A stretch of DNA of 54,346 nucleotides from an uncultured Verrucomicrobiales bacterium (lineage in GTDB: Bacteria > Verrucomicrobiota > Verrucomicrobiia > Verrucomicrobiales > Akkermansiaceae): the NCBI GenBank assembly GCA_937969495.1, contig CALBVY010000024.1:1-54346 (forward strand). The letters are read 5' to 3'. Made by a program: the position numbers and the translations under genes. Position 1 is the first letter of the stretch. Each line of letters opens with the position of its first letter. The notes beneath the pieces are model-generated. The model was not told where the DNA came from. It ran no database searches and saw only the letters and a list, made by a program, of their open reading frames with translations. Shown here one piece after another: positions 491 to 30,456 of the stretch.

Positions 491-3400
491 TTAAGCGGCA
501 AATTTCTGACTCAAGCTTTGGCTCCACCGTTCTGTAATCTGCTGAAGCTCCTCTTGGCTCGGAGGATTCGTATCCGAGCTAAAGGAACGGGCCTCCAGCG
601 TAGTAATCTCGGCTAACAGATCAGAACTCTGAGTATCATCTAAACCTGCGTTCTGATGAAGCCTCTTCAAGAAAGCAATAGCCGTCACCGGAGTTAAGGT
701 GCTAGGTAGCTGTGGGCCTGATACAACCTCGTCATCAGGGTCATTGTTCTTCTTAAGAATCATCCAGCAGGCGATAGCTAGAACTGGCACAAGTAATAAG
801 GCAAACCAAGCATTCAAGTCTGAACCACTTCCTCCGCCAAGTTCTACAACAGCCTCAGCAGGCACCAGATCAACGTCATCATATTGCTGCAAAATGAGCG
901 AATCTTCTTCTGCTAGGCTGAGGTCTTTCTGGAGTTCTGGGAATGTGAATGATTCAGGTAATCGATCCGATTTAGGAGTGAGAATCAACCGCCACTCGCG
1001 TGTGCTAATAGGTGCTCCATCATCAGTCTCTGCATCAAGCTCAGCAACAAGCAGCTCGTTATCCGAATCAGTGGCGACATCAAAACCCTCGATATCCAAT
1101 TCTAGAATATGCTCCAGTGGTGGGACCAGTCCATGAGCTGATGCTTTGACTTCAAGAGCTATCTTATCTGTCTTCTCAGCCTCACGTTCGTCCAGTGTTA
1201 ATGTCATTTTTAGATCTCTGTGCGGTCGTAATACGCCTTCAACAGAAGCATCAATAGGGATCGCCGCTGAGGTAATTGGCAGCACGACGTAACCTGAGGT
1301 ATCAAGAAAATCGAGATCGATCTTCAATGGAGGAATCGAATCAATTTCTGGCCCCTTTGGCTTTAACAGAAAGTAAGCATAAGGTGTTACACTCCAACCA
1401 AGCTCGGAGTCCGTACGACTCTGAATTTTAGAATGATGGAAGGTAAGTGAAACAACTTCAAAATGCTCCTCAAGTGCCGCACGGGCAGACTTCTCAAACT
1501 TGTCGCGATAATCTTCCTGAGGTCGCCCGTAGTTATAGGAATACTGGGAGTTACTCTGATTAATCAAGTATCGCTGAAAGCCTCCAGACTCACGCTCAAT
1601 TTCAAGAGTATGACGAAGGTTCACAAATAACCCAAACGGCTGAGATCTATCAATCCGGTCAGCCCCATCCAGATAAACATCGAGCTGAATTTCAGTCACC
1701 AAATCTTGGTAATACTGGAAGACCTTGGTCGCATCAGAGATACGTTCGTGTTCTCCTGTAATGGGTAATGCGGATTCAAGGAAACGGTACTTTAAGTCGG
1801 GCCCAACGTTCGCTAAGCGCGTGTTCAGAGTCTTCGCAAATTGAGTCATATGCCTATCACGACAAGCAGCAGGCAGGGCATCAAGCGACTCTTTAATTTT
1901 AGCAAATTCACTTGGCACTGGTTGATGGAAACTCTTCAGCGCCGCTAAGTCAGGTGAACCTAAAGCTGCATAAAACCATGTCGTAAATGGTTCATCGGAC
2001 TCTTCTTTTTTATCTTTGAGTGGGAGTGTAGCAGCATAAGAAGCACACGCATTTGCAAAACCATTGAGCGCGCGTCGTTTATTAGAACTATGCTCAGGGT
2101 GAGAGCCGAGGCTAGAGCGATAGTTAGATTCCTCATAGATAAGTGAGGCCTGCTGAACCTGCAGCGCCCAATCGTCTGGGTGATTCTGTAGCAAATCAAC
2201 ACATAATTGACGAGCCGCAGCGTATCCCCGTAACACCTGTGCCTGTAATTCTTTATCTTTCCTCTTAGTCTTTGCCTCTGCCTGAACTTTTGGGTTCGGC
2301 CATAAATTGGCTAAATTCCCACGCATCCGTCGGAGTAGCGATGCTGCAGTACCGGTATCGAGTTTTTTTAAATCACCAAATACAGACTCCAGTGCTTCGA
2401 CACGCCAGACTTCTGCCTTTGAATGACATTGGATAAAGGCGTCAGCAAACTCCTTATCAAAAGCCTCCCCTAAACCAAAACCCTGAATGGTTTCAAGAAG
2501 ACCTGATAGCTCTTGTAAATTGCGCTCTTGTTTTGAGCGAGTCAAAGGGATTGTTTCCGCACGCTGATTGTAGCCAGAGAAGTAGTAGTAAGAGGAACGG
2601 TAGCGGCTTTTCTGGTTCGGGTTATTATTTTCAGCCCAGACGCGAATAAGCTCCCGACACAGAGTTTTTGCTTCTTCAGGATTTAGCTTAGCAAGAGTCG
2701 AGAGCAAAGGCAGCGCCTTTTGATGCTCCTTCACTTTCAGGTAGAGGTGAGCAGTCAGAGTCAGAGCTTGAACCCTAACCGACTCATCCAACAAGGCCAT
2801 CCATTTACTATCAGGGCCTTCACGAAGAAGATCTCCGGTATCAATCGCAGCCACCACCTTTCGACGATTAGAACTTTGCGCCGTCATAGATCGGTTCGCA
2901 TTACCCCGTAAGTAGTAAGGATTACCATACGCATCAAAGGACATCTGCGGTCGCATAGACGTCGATGAATCATATTTTTTGCTATGATTTGCCTCATGAA
3001 GCCAATTACGCGCATAGATATTAAGTATCTCTTGCCACGGTTTAGGATCAATACCCGGTGTGCTTAACAACGCCTGCACCGCTGAATTTTGTAATTTAAT
3101 CTGTTCAAGACGATAAGGAGGCGAACTATGCTGGCGCACTTGAGCAGCTAAAGTTCCAATAGTAGTGAGAATCTCAAAACCCTCTCCATCAGATGCGGAA
3201 AAGGTCTTATTTAACCAGTCCCGGCCTGTTTCACCCTCAAGATCTGGAACCAATCCTAACGCGCGATAGAGTGCCTCCGCACGATCATTATAGGGAGCCC
3301 TCTTATCGCCAACTAAGTTCAGCGAAATCTCCCACGCCTGAGGTAAATGCTCATTCCCCTCGCGCCCACGGTGAGCCTGAGCATGCCAACGAGCTAATAA

Positions 3401-4198
3401 ATTAAGTGCTTCGTAATCGTTCTTCTTCTGAGCCAGCTCGCGGCTCGGCAAGTATGGCTTCGCCTCATTGAGATACCCGGCATCCATAAGAAACAAAGCT
3501 GTTCGCAGGGAAGTTTTCCCATCGGAAGAACCAAAATAACGGCTCGACATAAGGCTGTCAAAAAACTCCTTAGGTGGCTCATCACTATTTCTCAAAAGTT
3601 GTGATAGTTTCCTAAGCGTAAACTTGTTAGGGAATCTAGGGGAGAGGTTGGCAATAGCCAATACATCCAAGGAGCGGAGATATTGTGGCTGCGGGTGTGG
3701 TCTAGCCCCGGCAGCTGCCAGCTCAGATCTAGGCACAACATTAACAGGCGCGGCTAACTGCTGGAGAATACGATTATACGCAACCTGTTTCTCATTCTCT
3801 TTCAGCGTATTAAAATAATCACCCGCTTTTTTCCAATCACCCAGATTCAAATGAAGCTGGAACTGCGCGATATCTCTCTTCACCTTTGCGAGCTCCTCTT
3901 GTGCAGGGCTTAGCGGGGATCTAGGTGGGCTATTAACTTCATCACCCTTTCTACGGGTCTCGTCTAAGCGGGACTTAAGAATACCGGCATTGGTTCGGTC
4001 AATCGTAAGTTTCTGGAGTAAATCCAGTTTTGCTTTAGCGGGATTAGTGGAAGGTTTCTTCGACTTGAGAGACTTAGCCCCAGCCGTTTTTGCATTAATC
4101 CGCGCTTGGACTTCAGCCGGCAAATTCTGCGCTTGAACGGAAAAAGAAATCAACAGAAAACCACTGATGAAAAAATTTGTTAGGAAAGGTAATCGCAT
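491..4198 (-). CDS. Giant BatD-like membrane protein, last gene of Bat operon
   Basis: A 1235-residue protein of unknown detailed function. A signal peptide occupies residues 1-23 (cleavage likely after VQA). A long, mostly helical TPR-like region follows to about residue 800. A beta-rich part at about 850-1110 comes next. A single membrane helix lies at about 1130-1148 (AWFALLLVPVLAIACWMIL), and a cytoplasmic tail ends the protein. The tail (AFLKRLHQNAGL and after) resembles the short helical C-terminal domain of BatD-type proteins. Most of the mass is therefore predicted to be periplasmic, anchored at its C-terminus, working with the VWA proteins encoded upstream. It starts 33 nt after the TAA of the read-through TPR gene. 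No Shine-Dalgarno is seen. The assignment as BatD-like rests on topology and position, not on a recognised catalytic motif. Confidence 0.75.
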   Translation of the reverse strand: MRLPFLTNFFISGFLLISFSVQAQNLPAEVQARINAKTAGAKSLKSKKPSTNPAKAKLDLLQKLTIDRTNAGILKSRLDETRRKGDEVNSPPRSPLSPAQEELAKVKRDIAQFQLHLNLGDWKKAGDYFNTLKENEKQVAYNRILQQLAAPVNVVPRSELAAAGARPHPQPQYLRSLDVLAIANLSPRFPNKFTLRKLSQLLRNSDEPPKEFFDSLMSSRYFGSSDGKTSLRTALFLMDAGYLNEAKPYLPSRELAQKKNDYEALNLLARWHAQAHRGREGNEHLPQAWEISLNLVGDKRAPYNDRAEALYRALGLVPDLEGETGRDWLNKTFSASDGEGFEILTTIGTLAAQVRQHSSPPYRLEQIKLQNSAVQALLSTPGIDPKPWQEILNIYARNWLHEANHSKKYDSSTSMRPQMSFDAYGNPYYLRGNANRSMTAQSSNRRKVVAAIDTGDLLREGPDSKWMALLDESVRVQALTLTAHLYLKVKEHQKALPLLSTLAKLNPEEAKTLCRELIRVWAENNNPNQKSRYRSSYYYFSGYNQRAETIPLTRSKQERNLQELSGLLETIQGFGLGEAFDKEFADAFIQCHSKAEVWRVEALESVFGDLKKLDTGTAASLLRRMRGNLANLWPNPKVQAEAKTKRKDKELQAQVLRGYAAARQLCVDLLQNHPDDWALQVQQASLIYEESNYRSSLGSHPEHSSNKRRALNGFANACASYAATLPLKDKKEESDEPFTTWFYAALGSPDLAALKSFHQPVPSEFAKIKESLDALPAACRDRHMTQFAKTLNTRLANVGPDLKYRFLESALPITGEHERISDATKVFQYYQDLVTEIQLDVYLDGADRIDRSQPFGLFVNLRHTLEIERESGGFQRYLINQSNSQYSYNYGRPQEDYRDKFEKSARAALEEHFEVVSLTFHHSKIQSRTDSELGWSVTPYAYFLLKPKGPEIDSIPPLKIDLDFLDTSGYVVLPITSAAIPIDASVEGVLRPHRDLKMTLTLDEREAEKTDKIALEVKASAHGLVPPLEHILELDIEGFDVATDSDNELLVAELDAETDDGAPISTREWRLILTPKSDRLPESFTFPELQKDLSLAEEDSLILQQYDDVDLVPAEAVVELGGGSGSDLNAWFALLLVPVLAIACWMILKKNNDPDDEVVSGPQLPSTLTPVTAIAFLKRLHQNAGLDDTQSSDLLAEITTLEARSFSSDTNPPSQEELQQITERWSQSLSQKFAA

Positions 4199-4231: not shown

Positions 4232-4927
4232 TTAGGAACCAGCGCCATCAGGTGGAGGACCTTGACCGGCACCACGAGAATCTTTTGACTTCTGCTTAGA
4301 TGGTTTAAGACTAGGTTTCGAGCGACCGCCCGATGCACATCCTTGTCATTGGTTAGGAATAGGGAGACCATAAAGCTCAGTAGGATCTGCCCTAGCTAGA
4401 CGGATAGCAGCATCAAGATCTAACTTATGCTTGGCTTTATTTTCTCCAGTCATCGCAAGTAATTTGTATTCCTGTCTGGCTGCCTCAATCTCTGGCTCCC
4501 ATTCAGTCGCTGGCAGACCTTCTAACTTCATCAGGTAGGTCATATAATAACGTGCATTCGCCAAGGTGGATAAGGCGTCTTCTTTAAGGTCATCAGAGAC
4601 GCTCGCGTCCTCATTGATTTCAGCCACTAACTCAGCAAGATCCTCACGCGCCTCAGGCAAGGCTGCATTTTGCATTTTCGCCTTAGAAATCTCTAACTGA
4701 ATCCTACGTGCAGTATTTTTCTGATCCTTGGGAAGCTTGGAAAGTGCCTTCTGGTAGGCCACGATAGCACTACCCCATTGCTCTTCTTCCACCGCTCGGC
4801 GCGCCTCAGTCAAATAATTCTCAGTATCATCTAATGCCATTTTTTTCTGCCCAGGTCCATAATGGTAAGCTGCGATCCCTAGAGGAATGAGTAACCATAG
4901 CGTGGCGATAAGAATCCTTAGTTTCAT
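4232..4927 (-). CDS. BatC-like TPR protein, candidate selenoprotein (in-frame UGA as Sec194)
   Basis: A membrane-anchored TPR-type protein of the Bat operon. Residues 4-21 form a signal anchor, followed by AAYHYGPGQ, then helical TPR-like repeats (about 30-175) predicted to face the periplasm. A UGA at 4346-4348 would end it at 193 residues. The same frame then continues for 37 sense codons to TAA at 4232-4234, giving 231 residues with Sec194. The segment around the UGA reads PNQ-U-QGC-ASGGRS, a UxxC redox motif (Sec194, Cys197). A Lys/Ser-rich, then Gly/Pro-rich tail ends in PPPDGAGS. A SECIS-like hairpin follows the UGA. The extension closes a 147-nt gap to 33 nt in an operon whose other junctions overlap or lie within 4 nt. 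Alternatives are a true stop or a nonsense mutation (e.g. from TGG or TGT). The sel machinery is not in the window. I know of no described selenoprotein of this family. Confidence 0.82.
4318..4333 (-). promoter_or_regulatory. Bacterial SECIS-like hairpin after UGA
   Basis: Read on the minus strand, TCGGGC (4333-4328) pairs with GCTCGA (4323-4318) around the loop GGTC (4327-4324). This gives six pairs including one G-U. Exactly 18 nt separate the UGA (4348-4346) from the first loop base, the same distance and the same GGUC loop as in the E. coli fdhF SECIS bound by SelB (recalled from known biology). A short lower helix, AGG (4343-4341) with CCT (4315-4313), is also possible. The hairpin lies inside the coding sequence, as bacterial SECIS elements do. 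Confidence 0.78.
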
Positions 4928-4931
4928 TATG

Positions 4932-5942
4932 TTAATCTTTTAAGGTTGAAGGCATTAGGATGAAAACAAGTGGTAAAATAGCCAGCAAAAAAGAGGAAGA
5001 TGCACAGCCCATCAATGCATACTCTCTTGCCGTTAGCTTAAGCCCCTGATCATCCAGCTCAAGGGTACCCACACGAGCAAGCATCTCCGTTGGCACATGT
5101 TTGATATTACCATCATGGTATTCTCCACCAAGACGTGAAGCAATTTGGCGTAATGCACCTGTATCTTGCCGAGATTGACGTCCATCAATAAACGATCCCT
5201 TGCTAGGGTCACCCACTCCTAGCACGAGTACTCCGCCGATGGATTGAGGCATTTTAGGCATACCTGTCGAAGGCACGGTATCCCCATCACTAACAAGGAG
5301 AAGTGTGGTGGAATCAGCTGGCCATGGCTTGGCGATCTCTCCTGCCAGTTCAAGCCCATCAAAAATACGCGTCTTCCCAGTGGGGAAAACCTGATGAAGC
5401 GGCATATCATCTAGAAAATTAAGAATCACCTCAAGATCACGGCTTTCCTGAACAACAGGCTTTGCACCATTGTATACAGCTACCAAGGTAATATGAAGTT
5501 TGTTGTCGGTAGTGCGCTTCAGTAACGATTGAATTAATGCCGATGCTCTCTTGGTACGTGAAAGCCCATCGACTTCCCCTGCATCCTGAAGCTTCATGGA
5601 AGGCGAAACATCTAACACAAGCATCAGGTGATGCCTATCCTTGGGCTCAACCTCTGAAATCATCTTACTACGGTGTGCTTTTGGAGGTAATAGAAGAAGC
5701 GTAGTCAATGACCACGCCAGCACAGCAAGAGCAATGACGCGCACAGGGCTCGCAAGAATAGTCAGCCAATTCCCCTTCCCTGAAGGCCCAAAGGCCAAAT
5801 ATTTCACCTTACGAACACGCATCCAGTGAATCACCTCCGCACCTAAAGCGAGGATAGCAACAGCAAGACAGATGAGGATAGGTGTCAAAGGATGGATAAT
5901 TAAATGTGAACGTAGTTTACCACGGCGTGTAACGCAGCCCAA
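4932..5942 (-). CDS. BatB-like von Willebrand factor A membrane protein
   Basis: A VWA-domain inner-membrane protein of the Bat operon. Two N-terminal membrane helices lie at about 19-38 and 68-85. The VWA domain starts at about 106 with the MIDAS signature DVSPS (111-115), and later carries a metal-site Asp in LLVSDGD. A C-terminal helix lies at about 308-330. VWA domains bind a divalent metal and mediate protein contacts. In Bat systems BatA and BatB are thought to interact in the membrane and connect to the MoxR ATPase. The longest frame uses a TTG start overlapping the batA stop by 26 nt. A second TTG at codon 19, just before the first helix, is equally plausible, so the first 18 residues are uncertain. 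It ends 4 nt before the TPR selenoprotein candidate. Confidence 0.88.
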   Translation of the reverse strand: MGCVTRRGKLRSHLIIHPLTPILICLAVAILALGAEVIHWMRVRKVKYLAFGPSGKGNWLTILASPVRVIALAVLAWSLTTLLLLPPKAHRSKMISEVEPKDRHHLMLVLDVSPSMKLQDAGEVDGLSRTKRASALIQSLLKRTTDNKLHITLVAVYNGAKPVVQESRDLEVILNFLDDMPLHQVFPTGKTRIFDGLELAGEIAKPWPADSTTLLLVSDGDTVPSTGMPKMPQSIGGVLVLGVGDPSKGSFIDGRQSRQDTGALRQIASRLGGEYHDGNIKHVPTEMLARVGTLELDDQGLKLTAREYALMGCASSSFLLAILPLVFILMPSTLKD

Positions 5943-6834
5943 ATAGAGTCAGTAAATAAAGACCGCCAAGGGATAAAGATGTAATAATAAATGGCTGATA
6001 ATAATCTACAGGATCAGGTGTTAGTCTTTTCATCTCCGCCTGCTGCATCTCATCGATCTTACGAAAAATAGACTGCAGCGCCGCTGGATCTCCTGCGGAA
6101 AAAGTCTCTCCGCCAGTAATCGATGAAATAACCGAGACCTCCGGGGACACATCACCACGGCCAATATGTACCGCGTAGACAATGATATTGTTTGCCTTGA
6201 GACTCTGAGCAATTTCAACATCACTACCACCAGAAAGATCGGCACTTGCTCCATCAGAGAGAAGAATAATCATTCGATCACCAGTTTCCGTAGTCGTAAG
6301 ATATTTCTCTGACTGCTTGAGGGCCTTACCAATAAACGTTCCTCCAGAGAACCATTGTGGTAATTTATACGGATGCAAAAATGGTGGTGCAAATCTGAAA
6401 GCTGATACATCTGTGGTAAGAGGAACCCAACGCAATTGATGCCCACCAAAGACCATCAGTGAAAAGGCATCCCCTTTGCGGTAAGTCAAAAATCGATTCA
6501 GAGAATCCATCGCCACATCATATCTACTTTTTGCACCAAAAGAAGCGCCCATCGAACCAGACACATCTAGGCAAAACTGGATATTAGTCATCTCCCGCTC
6601 CGACTTTGGTCGCTCAAATTTACGTGGCCCTGCCAGCAGGAGAATAGCCAGAGCAAGAAGTAATGCCGGAAATATATTCACCACATTTAACAACCGCGCT
6701 AACCACTTAGCGTGTGCAACATCTTGGTGATCAAATGGCAACGCCAAAGGACGAGCATGCGCTCTCCATTGAAAAATAATCAACAAGATCGGTAAGGCTA
6801 ATGCTAAAAGCACATATGGATAAGCAAAAGTCAT
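5917..6834 (-). CDS. BatA-like von Willebrand factor A membrane protein
   Basis: A 305-residue BatA-type protein. The N-terminus (FAYPYVLLALALPILLII) is the typical BatA membrane helix (5-21), and a second helix lies at about 52-69. A VWA domain with intact MIDAS DVSGS (90-94) and MIILLSDGA follows. A C-terminal helix lies at about 281-300. It should sit in the inner membrane with a metal-binding VWA domain and pair with the BatB-like protein encoded next. Its ATG overlaps the TGA of the upstream gene by 4 nt (ATGA). This implies translational coupling, consistent with a fixed complex. The end overlaps the annotated batB start. Confidence 0.9.
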   Translation of the reverse strand: MTFAYPYVLLALALPILLIIFQWRAHARPLALPFDHQDVAHAKWLARLLNVVNIFPALLLALAILLLAGPRKFERPKSEREMTNIQFCLDVSGSMGASFGAKSRYDVAMDSLNRFLTYRKGDAFSLMVFGGHQLRWVPLTTDVSAFRFAPPFLHPYKLPQWFSGGTFIGKALKQSEKYLTTTETGDRMIILLSDGASADLSGGSDVEIAQSLKANNIIVYAVHIGRGDVSPEVSVISSITGGETFSAGDPAALQSIFRKIDEMQQAEMKRLTPDPVDYYQPFIITSLSLGGLYLLTLFGLRYTPW

Positions 6835-7649
6835 ACGTCACGAAAAGAATCTAACAAATTATTGATTGACTGCTGATCAATGGAAGGGTTAGGAGCATGC
6901 AGCCAATACTCAAGCTTAAGTAAAAGAGGTGATGCCTCTGGATGAGAGCGCAGGGTCACTAATGCCTCAGACGCAGGCAGATTTTCAATTTCTGGTAATT
7001 TTTGTTTCCAATGCCCGAGAATAAGTCTTTCAAGTTGCGATCGATCACTATCCGATAAGTCACCATGTGCAGCGGCACGGACAAGGTTGCCCAATTTCTC
7101 GTGTAGTGTAGGAGGTGGTTGCAAGAACTCTTCGGACTGAACTTTTTTCTTCCTCCAAAACAGAATAAGTAAAAAGACAACCCCCCAAATAACTAAACAT
7201 ACCGTCAATAGCACTCGATACCCTCCAACATTTTCTGGAGGCACATTCGCCAGCTCCTTCGGTTTTGGAATCCCTTCAAGATCGTGCTCCGTAACGATAG
7301 TAATTTGCTGGCTCAGCTGAGGTAATGACTCATTGCTACCAACATAACGAAAATAATCAGATAATCGATATGACCCAGGGTCTAGCCCATAAATTTCCAA
7401 ATCATAACGGAAACCATCTGCGGCAGGCTTAACCTCCAGCACCCGGATCACCAATGAAGATTCACTATCTATCCGAGGGATTGGCTCAGCTTTGCTTCCA
7501 GCGATATAGAAGTCATTCAGTACAATTGGTAAGCCGAGAGAAGATTCTAACTCTGGTTGATCTACCTCTGCGCTTACCTGAAGTCCAAGTATCCCCATTG
7601 CACAAAGCAATAAAGAAAAGCGACGAACGAACTGAAACACAACGATCAT
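6831..7649 (-). CDS. Small BatD/DUF4381-like membrane protein
   Basis: A 272-residue protein with a signal peptide (cleavage near VSA-EV, about residue 28). It has a beta-rich periplasmic domain to about 140, one membrane helix at about 145-165 (VLLTVCLVIWGVVFLLILFW), and a helical cytoplasmic domain of about 100 residues. Bat operons encode such proteins (BatD or DUF4381 type) between the DUF58 and VWA genes. The topology and position fit, but no catalytic motif is visible. Both ends overlap neighbours by 4 nt, as part of the tightly coupled DUF58-BatA series. Function is probably scaffolding of the envelope complex (inference). Confidence 0.7.
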   Translation of the reverse strand: MIVVFQFVRRFSLLLCAMGILGLQVSAEVDQPELESSLGLPIVLNDFYIAGSKAEPIPRIDSESSLVIRVLEVKPAADGFRYDLEIYGLDPGSYRLSDYFRYVGSNESLPQLSQQITIVTEHDLEGIPKPKELANVPPENVGGYRVLLTVCLVIWGVVFLLILFWRKKKVQSEEFLQPPPTLHEKLGNLVRAAAHGDLSDSDRSQLERLILGHWKQKLPEIENLPASEALVTLRSHPEASPLLLKLEYWLHAPNPSIDQQSINNLLDSFRDV

Positions 7650-8497
7650 CTAGAAAGCATATTACAGGACTTAAGATAAAGGCGAAGAGAAGCAAGGAAT
7701 GGGCGATCCGTATGAATGAGAAAATGATCAATAGATGCCTGCTTAAGTGCATCCGTAGTACCGTCCAACGTCGTAAAATTTTTATTTGCTCGCGCAGTAA
7801 ATGTATTTCCAGTCTCAATTTCCTGACCACGCAACAGACCTGCTCCAGCTAACGAATCCTCAGCAGGGTCTCTTAACATCAACACCGTTAGATCATGACG
7901 GTGACCTAATAGCTTAAGTGCTGGTATAGCGGTGGGATCATGCAGATCAGACAACACAAATATCAGACTCTTCTCATTCAATGATGGATTAAGCGAAACC
8001 AATTTACGCCCAAGGTGAGTAGGTTCTGAAAAATCAAAATGCCTAAGCCGGTGCAACCACTGAAGAACTGTTTCTCTAGAAAGCGATGGCTTGATATTAA
8101 TATCGCGCGCTCCAGCACCTAACAAACCTACAGGCGAGACACGATCCAAACAAGCCAATGCTAACCCACCTGCAATCTGGACAGCCAGTTGATATTTAGA
8201 AATCGTTGTCGATGCATGCGTCATCGATGCCGAGGTATCCACAATAAACCATACTGGCAGACTCTTGGGTGACTCATATTCTTTGATATGCGTCTTACCG
8301 GTGCGTGCCGTAACTCGCCAATCAATAGACCTCACAGGATCCCCAGGAGCATAATGCCTTGATTGCACGTACTCGAGCCCTTGCCCTAAAAACGGAGAAC
8401 TATCCGTGCCGTAGGAAAGAGAATCTGCCAATCTCTTCACCGCGATCAAAAACTGGCGCGAATCAAGAGGGCGAGTATCTTTAAGCTGCTTTTTCAC
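7646..8497 (-). CDS. DUF58 domain protein
   Basis: A 283-residue cytoplasmic protein without membrane helices. The DUF58 signature RSIDWRVTARTGKTHIKEY is at about 57-74. It is followed by a VWA-like fold with the MIDAS-type DTSAS at 87-91. DUF58 proteins almost always accompany MoxR ATPases and are regarded as the adaptor between the ATPase and the membrane VWA proteins. It starts 2 nt after the moxR stop and overlaps the next gene by 4 nt. Confidence 0.92.
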   Translation of the reverse strand: MKKQLKDTRPLDSRQFLIAVKRLADSLSYGTDSSPFLGQGLEYVQSRHYAPGDPVRSIDWRVTARTGKTHIKEYESPKSLPVWFIVDTSASMTHASTTISKYQLAVQIAGGLALACLDRVSPVGLLGAGARDINIKPSLSRETVLQWLHRLRHFDFSEPTHLGRKLVSLNPSLNEKSLIFVLSDLHDPTAIPALKLLGHRHDLTVLMLRDPAEDSLAGAGLLRGQEIETGNTFTARANKNFTTLDGTTDALKQASIDHFLIHTDRPFLASLRLYLKSCNMLSR

Positions 8498-8499
8498 AT

Positions 8500-9492
8500 C
8501 TAGGAGATTGATTCTTCAAGGATTTGCTGGAGAATCTGACGTGGTGTCTTCCCATCCGCCAAAGCTTCATAAGATAAGCGGATACGGTGCAAAATCACGT
8601 CTTCAGCCAAGGCAAACAAATCCTCGGAAACCGCGTAGTCGCGGCCATGAATAAGCGCGCGAGCACGAGATGCCTTTAGTAAAGAAATACCTGCACGAGG
8701 AGAACATCCCAACTCAAGGTCTGGGTGCTTACGAGTGCGCTCTACGATATCAACCACATGCTTTAGAAATACTTCACTAACATGAATATCATGTGTCGCC
8801 TCCATCGCAGCGACCAAATCCTCAGGAGTGCCCACGGCATCATCCGATACCAGATCAAATTCCGTCCGAGCTACCGCTCCGCCATCTTTTTTCTGGACCC
8901 CTAACTTTAAGTTCCTCCGGAGAATTTCCTCTTCGTCTTGCGGCTCAGGATAACTCAATCGATGACAGAGCATAAAACGATCTAACTGCGCCTCAGGGAG
9001 TTCGAACGTTCCAGACTGCTCGATTGGGTTTTGTGTAGCAATCACGAGAAATGGGGTAGGCAGTGGCATCGTCTGATTTCCAAGAGTCACTTTCCGCTCC
9101 TGCATCGCTTCTAGCAGAGCCCCTTGCACCTTGGGTGCTGCTCGGTTAATCTCATCCGCCAAAAGTAGATTGGTAAAAATCGGGCCATGATGAGTACGGA
9201 AACTACCGGATTTTTCATCGAGTATTTCACTGCCAATAATATCTGACGGTAACAGATCGATGGTAAACTGCACCCGACTGAAGTCCAAGTGAATCGCTTT
9301 TGAAATCGTGTTCACCAAAAGCGTCTTCGCTAAGCCCGGCATCCCTTCCAGCAGCAGGTGACCAGAGGTTAACAGAGAAATTAACGTCCGCTCCACAACA
9401 ACATCTTGCCCAACGACAATCTCTCCAACACGATCACGAATCTCTTTAAGATAAGAGGCAAGATGGTTATTTGAGGTACTTAATTGACTCAT
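8500..9492 (-). CDS. MoxR-family AAA+ ATPase
   Basis: A 330-residue AAA+ ATPase of the MoxR branch, first gene of the Bat operon. It shows the Walker A variant EGMPGLAKT, Walker B LLLADEINRA, sensor 1 ATQNPIEQ, and an arginine-rich lid region ending with SPRAGISLLKASRARA, all typical of MoxR. Family role: ATP-driven remodelling or maturation of VWA-linked client complexes. The chosen start is the ATG giving MSQLSTS. An upstream in-frame TTG at 9513 would add seven residues, but these lie outside the conserved domain. It is divergent from aspartokinase across about 150 nt, which should contain the operon promoter. Confidence 0.93.
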   Translation of the reverse strand: MSQLSTSNNHLASYLKEIRDRVGEIVVGQDVVVERTLISLLTSGHLLLEGMPGLAKTLLVNTISKAIHLDFSRVQFTIDLLPSDIIGSEILDEKSGSFRTHHGPIFTNLLLADEINRAAPKVQGALLEAMQERKVTLGNQTMPLPTPFLVIATQNPIEQSGTFELPEAQLDRFMLCHRLSYPEPQDEEEILRRNLKLGVQKKDGGAVARTEFDLVSDDAVGTPEDLVAAMEATHDIHVSEVFLKHVVDIVERTRKHPDLELGCSPRAGISLLKASRARALIHGRDYAVSEDLFALAEDVILHRIRLSYEALADGKTPRQILQQILEESIS

Positions 9493-9577
9493 TTTATGAA
9501 AAGTATAGAGCAATCACCTGCCGTCAACATACAAAGCAGCGGCTAGCATTTTAAATATCGGATCAAGCTCGTGATGC

Positions 9578-29511: not shown

Positions 29512-29916
29512 CTATTTTGTGGTAGCGAGACTCACCGTTTTGGCTCCGGCGAGTTTGGCGGCATTGATAACCTGAACGATAAGCCCATGGTTAGTATTGG
29601 TATCACCTTGAATAATAACTGGCGTTTTCTGATCAGATTCTAACATTGCAGCCACCACACTGCGCACACCGTTCACTCCTATACTGCGCCCGCCTTGATA
29701 CACCTGACCATTTGATGTCACAGCGATGAGGATAGAGTTTTTCTCCAAATCCTGTGCTGAACTTGCACGTGGCTTATTCACATCCACACCTGTTTCCTCC
29801 ACAAAAACAGTGGTTACAATAAAGAAAATCAGCAGAATAAACACCACATCGATCAAGGGAGAAATATTGATCTCCGAGGTGGAATCATCAGCTGAAAAAT
29901 GACGGAAGCGGCGCAT
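29512..29916 (-). CDS. exbD: ExbD biopolymer transport protein
   Basis: A 134-residue ExbD with a classical N-terminus INISPLIDVVFILLIFFIVTT, in which the Asp of PLIDVVF is the conserved proton-path residue. The periplasmic domain includes GANGVRSVVAAM-like residues and the end GAKTVSLATT. It works with the adjacent ExbB proteins in the same operon. Confidence 0.93.
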   Translation of the reverse strand: MRRFRHFSADDSTSEINISPLIDVVFILLIFFIVTTVFVEETGVDVNKPRASSAQDLEKNSILIAVTSNGQVYQGGRSIGVNGVRSVVAAMLESDQKTPVIIQGDTNTNHGLIVQVINAAKLAGAKTVSLATTK

Positions 29917-29940
29917 GAGAAAAACAGTGGAGTGAGCCCA

Positions 29941-30456
29941 TCAATGGCCAGTAATCAGTGATCGGTGAAGGTTCTGCTGCAGTGTGGCGTAGGCTGAGGC
30001 TGTTTGCCTCCGTAACAAAGCAAGAAGAAAAGCAGCGGGGATGGCGATGAGCAGCCCTGCTTGAGTAGTAATCAGAGCCTCGGCGATACCAACGGAAATC
30101 TTATCGATAGGCTTGGCCGTACTTCTGGTAGCGAGACCAGAAAATGTCACTAACATCCCCGAAACTGTTCCTAATAATCCAGCCAGCGGTGCTGCCCCAG
30201 CGAGCACACCAATAAATGGAAGACGGCGCTGAACCCATGCCAAACGATCCAGCTCATAGGTAACAAACTCCCCCTCCACAGAGCGCCTACCCCGCTCCGT
30301 AGCAGGTTGCAAATCTTCACCAGCCACTTCTTTTTTCACCTTACTCAGGCCGAGCCATGTAGAGGCCAGTATCGCGTAAAGCCCGACACCTAGCAGAAGC
30401 AGAGCCCAGAGAATCGGGCCACCCTGATGGAGGACATGCTGGAGTTCTGAGATCAT
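29941..30456 (-). CDS. exbB: ExbB/TolQ-type proton channel
   Basis: A 171-residue short ExbB. The first helix is at about 12-32. The core APLAGLLGTVSGMLVTF lies at about 87-103, followed by GIAEALITTQAGLLIAIPAAFLLALL. It partners ExbD. It overlaps the upstream TtpC-like gene by 4 nt, consistent with the TtpC-ExbB-ExbD-TonB arrangement. Confidence 0.93.
   Translation of the reverse strand: MISELQHVLHQGGPILWALLLLGVGLYAILASTWLGLSKVKKEVAGEDLQPATERGRRSVEGEFVTYELDRLAWVQRRLPFIGVLAGAAPLAGLLGTVSGMLVTFSGLATRSTAKPIDKISVGIAEALITTQAGLLIAIPAAFLLALLRRQTASAYATLQQNLHRSLITGH

Follow-up and report, generated by a model that had tools for sequence, protein, structure and literature searches.

The window, the whole 54,346-nt stretch of DNA that was analysed, carries on its minus strand a single operon encoding a MoxR ATPase, a DUF58 protein and two vWA proteins, which places it among the MoxR-Bat systems (Table 1). 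Within this operon lies a gene for a small TPR-like protein that opens with an ATG at 4927, reaches a UGA codon in the context PNQ-U-QGC and continues in frame through 37 sense codons to a TAA at 4232-4234. The upstream vWA gene ends at 4932, leaving a 4-nt gap, and the next gene starts at 4198, so that the gap to it measures 147 nt if counted from the UGA but only 33 nt from the TAA. The coordinates and gap sizes given by the initial annotation in its proposal of a candidate selenoprotein were reproduced by translation and by the gene positions. As it had cautioned, a bare open stretch of this length is not rare, with at least 37 open codons past the stop in 6 of the 38 long ORFs in the window, and so the extension on its own is weak evidence. 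TGA is an ordinary stop codon there, ending 10 of the 38 long ORFs. Another ORF of the window with a UGA extension (29512-30456) was rejected, as it consists of an ExbB-like gene ending in UGA and then an in-frame ExbD-like gene, an ordinary arrangement that mimics a UGA extension.

Table 1. Features of the operon and of the proposed selenoprotein gene, with positions in the window
Feature	Position	Strand	Details and basis
1235-aa protein, next gene of the operon	491..4198	-	in every searched genome with the selenoprotein gene
Proposed selenoprotein gene (TPR protein of the MoxR-Bat operon), complete	4232..4927	-	231 residues, Sec at 194; translation, 37 UGA and 13 Cys homologues, TPR models, structural model with pLDDT 86.5
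Translated 37-codon tail and TAA: UxxC arm, linker, C-terminal motif DSRGAGxGPPxDGxGS	4232..4345	-	pN/pS 0.27 in frame
Putative SECIS hairpin	4310..4328 (roughly 4327 to 4312, give or take a few bases at either end)	-	six-pair stem UCGGGC/GCUCGA, GGUC loop 19 nt past the UGA
UGA codon 194, very probably read as selenocysteine, UxxC with Cys197	4346..4348	-	UGA at 38 loci, Cys at 13, UAA or UAG at 0
vWA protein, second in the operon (BatB-like position)	4932..5942	-	PF13519; adjacent in L001-L003 and most loci tested
vWA protein, BatA-like	5917..6834	-	PF00092/PF13519; NCBIfam VWA_BatA_Lepto E 1e-25, below cut-off
Membrane protein, at the position where BatD-like or DUF4381-like proteins usually stand	6831..7649	-	conserved in L001-L003; no Pfam or NCBIfam match
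DUF58 protein	7646..8497	-	PF01882 E 1e-35
MoxR AAA+ ATPase	8500..9513	-	PF07726 E 4e-62

The order MoxR, DUF58, membrane protein, two vWA proteins, TPR protein and 1235-aa protein is kept at three other loci (L001, L002 and L003). Assignment of the small protein to the TPR proteins of Bat operons follows from TPR models that match up to 35 of 55 family members, matches that are weak but repeated and that do not imply orthology to BatC or BatE. L005 (G058) and L016 (G080) have the TPR and 1235-aa genes, but a search of the 1.5 kb upstream gave no second vWA gene, in contrast to most loci. In 13 genus-mates, some with incomplete genomes, neither the TPR gene nor the 1235-aa gene was found, and homologues 74% identical occur in another genus; loss and horizontal transfer are suggested alternatives. 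The contig of L002 is titled Akkermansia muciniphila and its tail is identical to that of L068, from genus g7 of the same family, which makes the species label doubtful.

What takes the extension of the TPR gene beyond chance is a UGA that recurs at one codon in 38 loci and gives way to Cys in 13 others, a covarying hairpin in the UGA loci only and a tail under purifying selection. Homologues were sought in public genomes, in 98 related genomes and in 387 genomes of the order. The 38 UGA loci comprise the window and 37 further ones, each with the same kind of conserved tail, and a base error at UGA 194 is therefore very unlikely. In 13 other genomes the frame is uninterrupted and the same tail follows a Cys (PKQC or PKPC), and neither UAA nor UAG occurs at the site in any locus. 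This is exactly the alternation of Cys and UGA at residue 194 that the initial annotation had predicted. Its expectation of a conserved Cys197 held in both the UGA and the Cys forms, apart from one locus (L110) where a UGA stands instead and the CNC-type Cys forms, in which the second Cys lies one residue nearer. Nor do the homologues end at PNQ, an outcome that had been named as speaking against the proposal; the tail is common to them. In the UGA loci it consists of xGC (xGU in L110), a Lys/Gly/Pro-rich linker and, mostly, a terminal DSRGAGxGPPxDGxGS, before a true stop that is TAA in 22, TAG in nine and TGA in six (one partial locus left out). In a tree built without the tail, the Cys forms make up two groups apart from each other, one of which branches from inside the UGA forms, so Sec has probably been replaced by Cys twice.

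Translation of the 37-codon tail, and selection upon it, are strongly supported by the pattern of substitutions. Over the last 17 tail codons, the three codon positions diverge by 0.22/0.17/0.66, and an in-frame pN/pS of 0.27 stands against 1.95 and 2.08 when the other frames are read, which argues for a translated tail. In the 30 codons past the true stop, divergence is even over the three positions (0.70/0.71/0.72).

Downstream of the UGA, a hairpin with an invariant GGUC loop is found in 38 of 38 UGA loci and in none of the 13 Cys loci. Its loop starts 19 nt after the UGA in 19 loci, and at +22 (2 loci), +28 (16) or +34 nt (1) in the others. All six stem pairs show changes on both sides among 30 distinct sequences, and 88.3% of cells form pairs compared with 58.2% in shuffles. 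The covariation score of 0.655 (0.179 when shuffled) was reached by 0 of 500 shuffles and drops to 0.31 or less when the helix is slid along the alignment. Plain folding energy does not separate UGA from Cys loci (mean -14.9 and -13.1); loop identity and covariation do. Bacterial SECIS elements are described as having an apical loop of 3-9 nt with a G in the first two places and a stem of 4-16 bp, 16-37 nt past the UGA (PMC13188914), and the GGUC loop, the stem of about 4 to 7 bp and the spacing of +19 to +34 nt all lie within this description. Two loci have two in-frame UGAs before one hairpin, namely L110 (708-1421, minus strand), which reads U-Q-G-U with the second UGA in place of the conserved Cys197, and L096 (721-1398, plus strand), which reads U-Q-G-C-U; counted by eye, the loop of this sole hairpin lies +19 and +22 nt, respectively, from the second UGA. 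Both loci could possibly encode a diselenide form.

The genome of the window has all four selenium genes for which a search had been proposed, each over its curated cut-off: selA (501 bits), selB (308), selD (377) and a tRNA-Sec (selC, 57.6 bits) with a UCA anticodon. The SelA N-terminal model PF12390 has no match in this genome, a false negative given the score of the full selA model TIGR00474. Across the family, 33 of 37 UGA genomes have a selA match over cut-off and two more have fragments, against 0 of 13 Cys genomes, although this co-occurrence is weaker than the raw counts suggest, since the tree holds only about two independent Sec/Cys switches and thus few independent contrasts. The two UGA-form genomes in which selA was not found are MAGs of 53-59% completeness. 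Counting was restricted to matches over cut-off, because low-scoring hits of RF01852 and TIGR00475 extend to other tRNAs and elongation factors. Even so, some selA-less genomes have tRNAs just over the RF01852 cut-off, so that the two groups cannot be told apart by selC alone. The selD of the window's genome (L133, G000:C22:24700-26700) has an in-frame UGA of its own, followed by a possible hairpin, ACGCA-GGUUC-UGCGU.

An AlphaFold2 model of the protein (mean pLDDT 86.5) shows a long N-terminal helix, helical hairpins and a TPR-like domain. Many of the best Foldseek matches to the model are TPR domains, though no match is strong (E above 0.001 throughout), and the model contains no thioredoxin fold. 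From about residue 200 the tail, with the UxxC arm, is modelled at low confidence and is probably disordered. Since the N-terminal sequence MKLRILIATLWLLIPLGIAAYHYG resembles a signal anchor, the TPR domain would be periplasmic, and the protein is probably membrane-anchored and periplasmic with a flexible C-terminal UxxC arm.

Taken together, the alternation of UGA and Cys, the covarying hairpin, the low pN/pS of the tail, the Sec machinery, the co-occurrence with selA and the UxxU of L110 argue that UGA 194 is decoded as selenocysteine, to which we assign a probability of about 95% on these comparative data. In this organism, with its complete machinery, the hairpin would act as a bSECIS element directing Sec insertion at the UGA. 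It is hardly credible that translation simply stops at the UGA and that the tail is a frame open by chance or the remains of a decayed C-terminus; the commonness of 37-codon open runs in the window would suit it, but the tail is conserved in 51 loci under the constraint described above, and divergence becomes even over codon positions only past the true stop. Tail conservation alone can't tell Sec insertion from near-cognate suppression or the use of another amino acid, by which the tail would be made without selenium. This too is very improbable, as homologues have Cys at the site rather than Trp or another residue, the hairpin is of the bSECIS type, selA accompanies the UGA form, and TGA serves as an ordinary stop in the window.

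For the chemistry of the arm, the choice is chiefly between thiol redox work and metal binding. If Sec is inserted, Sec194 and Cys197 could form and break a selenylsulfide bond, and the pair would be a mobile redox arm through which the MoxR-Bat complex passes electrons to and from envelope thiols or partner proteins; the conserved C-terminal peptide may dock to a partner, for which a vWA domain is a candidate. The operon context, with MoxR, DUF58 and vWA genes, and the partial rescue of a Bacteroides bat mutant by reducing agents (Tang 1999, as reported in PMC3557215) point towards a redox role in the Bat complex, for which we consider the chances about even. Bat proteins were proposed in 1999 to reduce oxidised periplasmic proteins or repair them, or to export reducing power (Tang 1999, as relayed in PMC3557215); no organism has so far provided proof of a redox role (PMC5700661), and a study in Leptospira noted that no specific Bat function had been demonstrated (PMC3557215). 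The disorder of the modelled arm, its lack of a thioredoxin fold and the distant homologues L116-L118, whose tails have neither residue of the pair, also weigh against the overall reading. The narrower suggestion that the TPR selenoprotein is the dedicated envelope redox arm of that proposal, in some species as a diselenide (UxxU), is tentative and falls somewhat short of even chances. The main rival accepts Sec but has the UxxC arm bind a metal ion, for instance for delivery to vWA MIDAS sites, and do no thiol redox work. It draws on the extra Cys beside the site in Cys forms (CNGCCSGKC, CKNCKSGRC, CNCKSGKC), which resemble a ligand set, and on the proposal that MoxR loads metal into MIDAS sites (PMC3557215). 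However, UGA forms lack the extra Cys, leaving U and C as few ligands for a stable site, and most UxxC selenoproteins are taken as redox proteins (PMC13188914), so that metal binding seems unlikely.

The TPR selenoprotein appears to represent an undescribed family. The initial annotation knew of no selenoprotein in the Bat/TPR family, in agreement with a 2026 catalogue of 119 prokaryotic selenoprotein families and subfamilies, Table 1 of which has no TPR or Bat entry (PMC13188914). Likewise, no NCBIfam model matches it above cut-off, and it is not named in a 2022 review, among the new families of deep-Sep or among the GOS families; this comparison was made by name, and an earlier report, for instance under an unnamed hypothetical family (GOS_A to GOS_C and others), is conceivable. 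A full-text search of a non-exhaustive literature collection for tetratricopeptide with selenoprotein, UGA and SECIS gave nothing relevant, and Verrucomicrobiales is not mentioned in the selenoproteome reviews consulted. With catalogued bacterial UxxC selenoproteins (PMC13188914) it shares the in-frame UGA, the downstream bSECIS, Cys homologues, the UxxC motif and genomic Sec machinery. Most characterised selenoproteins have a thioredoxin-like fold, whereas here the scaffold is TPR and the motif lies in a disordered C-terminal arm. The operon shares MoxR, DUF58, two vWA proteins and a membrane-anchored TPR protein with Bat (Bacteroides aerotolerance) operons, but differs in the C-terminal Sec or Cys arm of its TPR protein, in the additional 1235-aa protein and in a fifth protein that neither Pfam nor NCBIfam identifies as BatD. 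Mammalian thioredoxin reductase also carries a Sec/Cys pair on a flexible C-terminal arm, with the sequence GCUG. No homology is claimed, and the protein described here has no flavoprotein domain, a UxxC rather than a CU motif and a longer tail past the pair.

The finding would add a selenoprotein family built on a TPR scaffold. More important is its bearing on MoxR-Bat systems, whose biochemical role has yet to be settled. Conservation of a Sec/Cys pair at a precise site, where species without Sec machinery have Cys, suggests that redox or metal chemistry takes place at an identified residue and offers a direct experimental handle, and the old idea that Bat systems perform redox chemistry outside the cytoplasm becomes directly testable. 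Gene finders that take UGA as a stop truncate such genes at PNQ.

Further variation surrounds the site. Cys forms of both Cys lineages, for example L012, L013 and L017, have one or two extra Cys just past it (SGKC, SGRC), and the UGA forms do not. A clade of five loci (L018-L020, L111 and L112) has a related tail with a single Cys (PKEGQC or PKEGRC), and selA is still present in one member genome, G067. Distant homologues from another group of the phylum (L116-L118, in G667, G578 and G563) carry no Sec and no Cys in their tails and still terminate in DARGSGLGERPEGxGS, so that the C-terminal motif appears to be more widely conserved than the Sec site.
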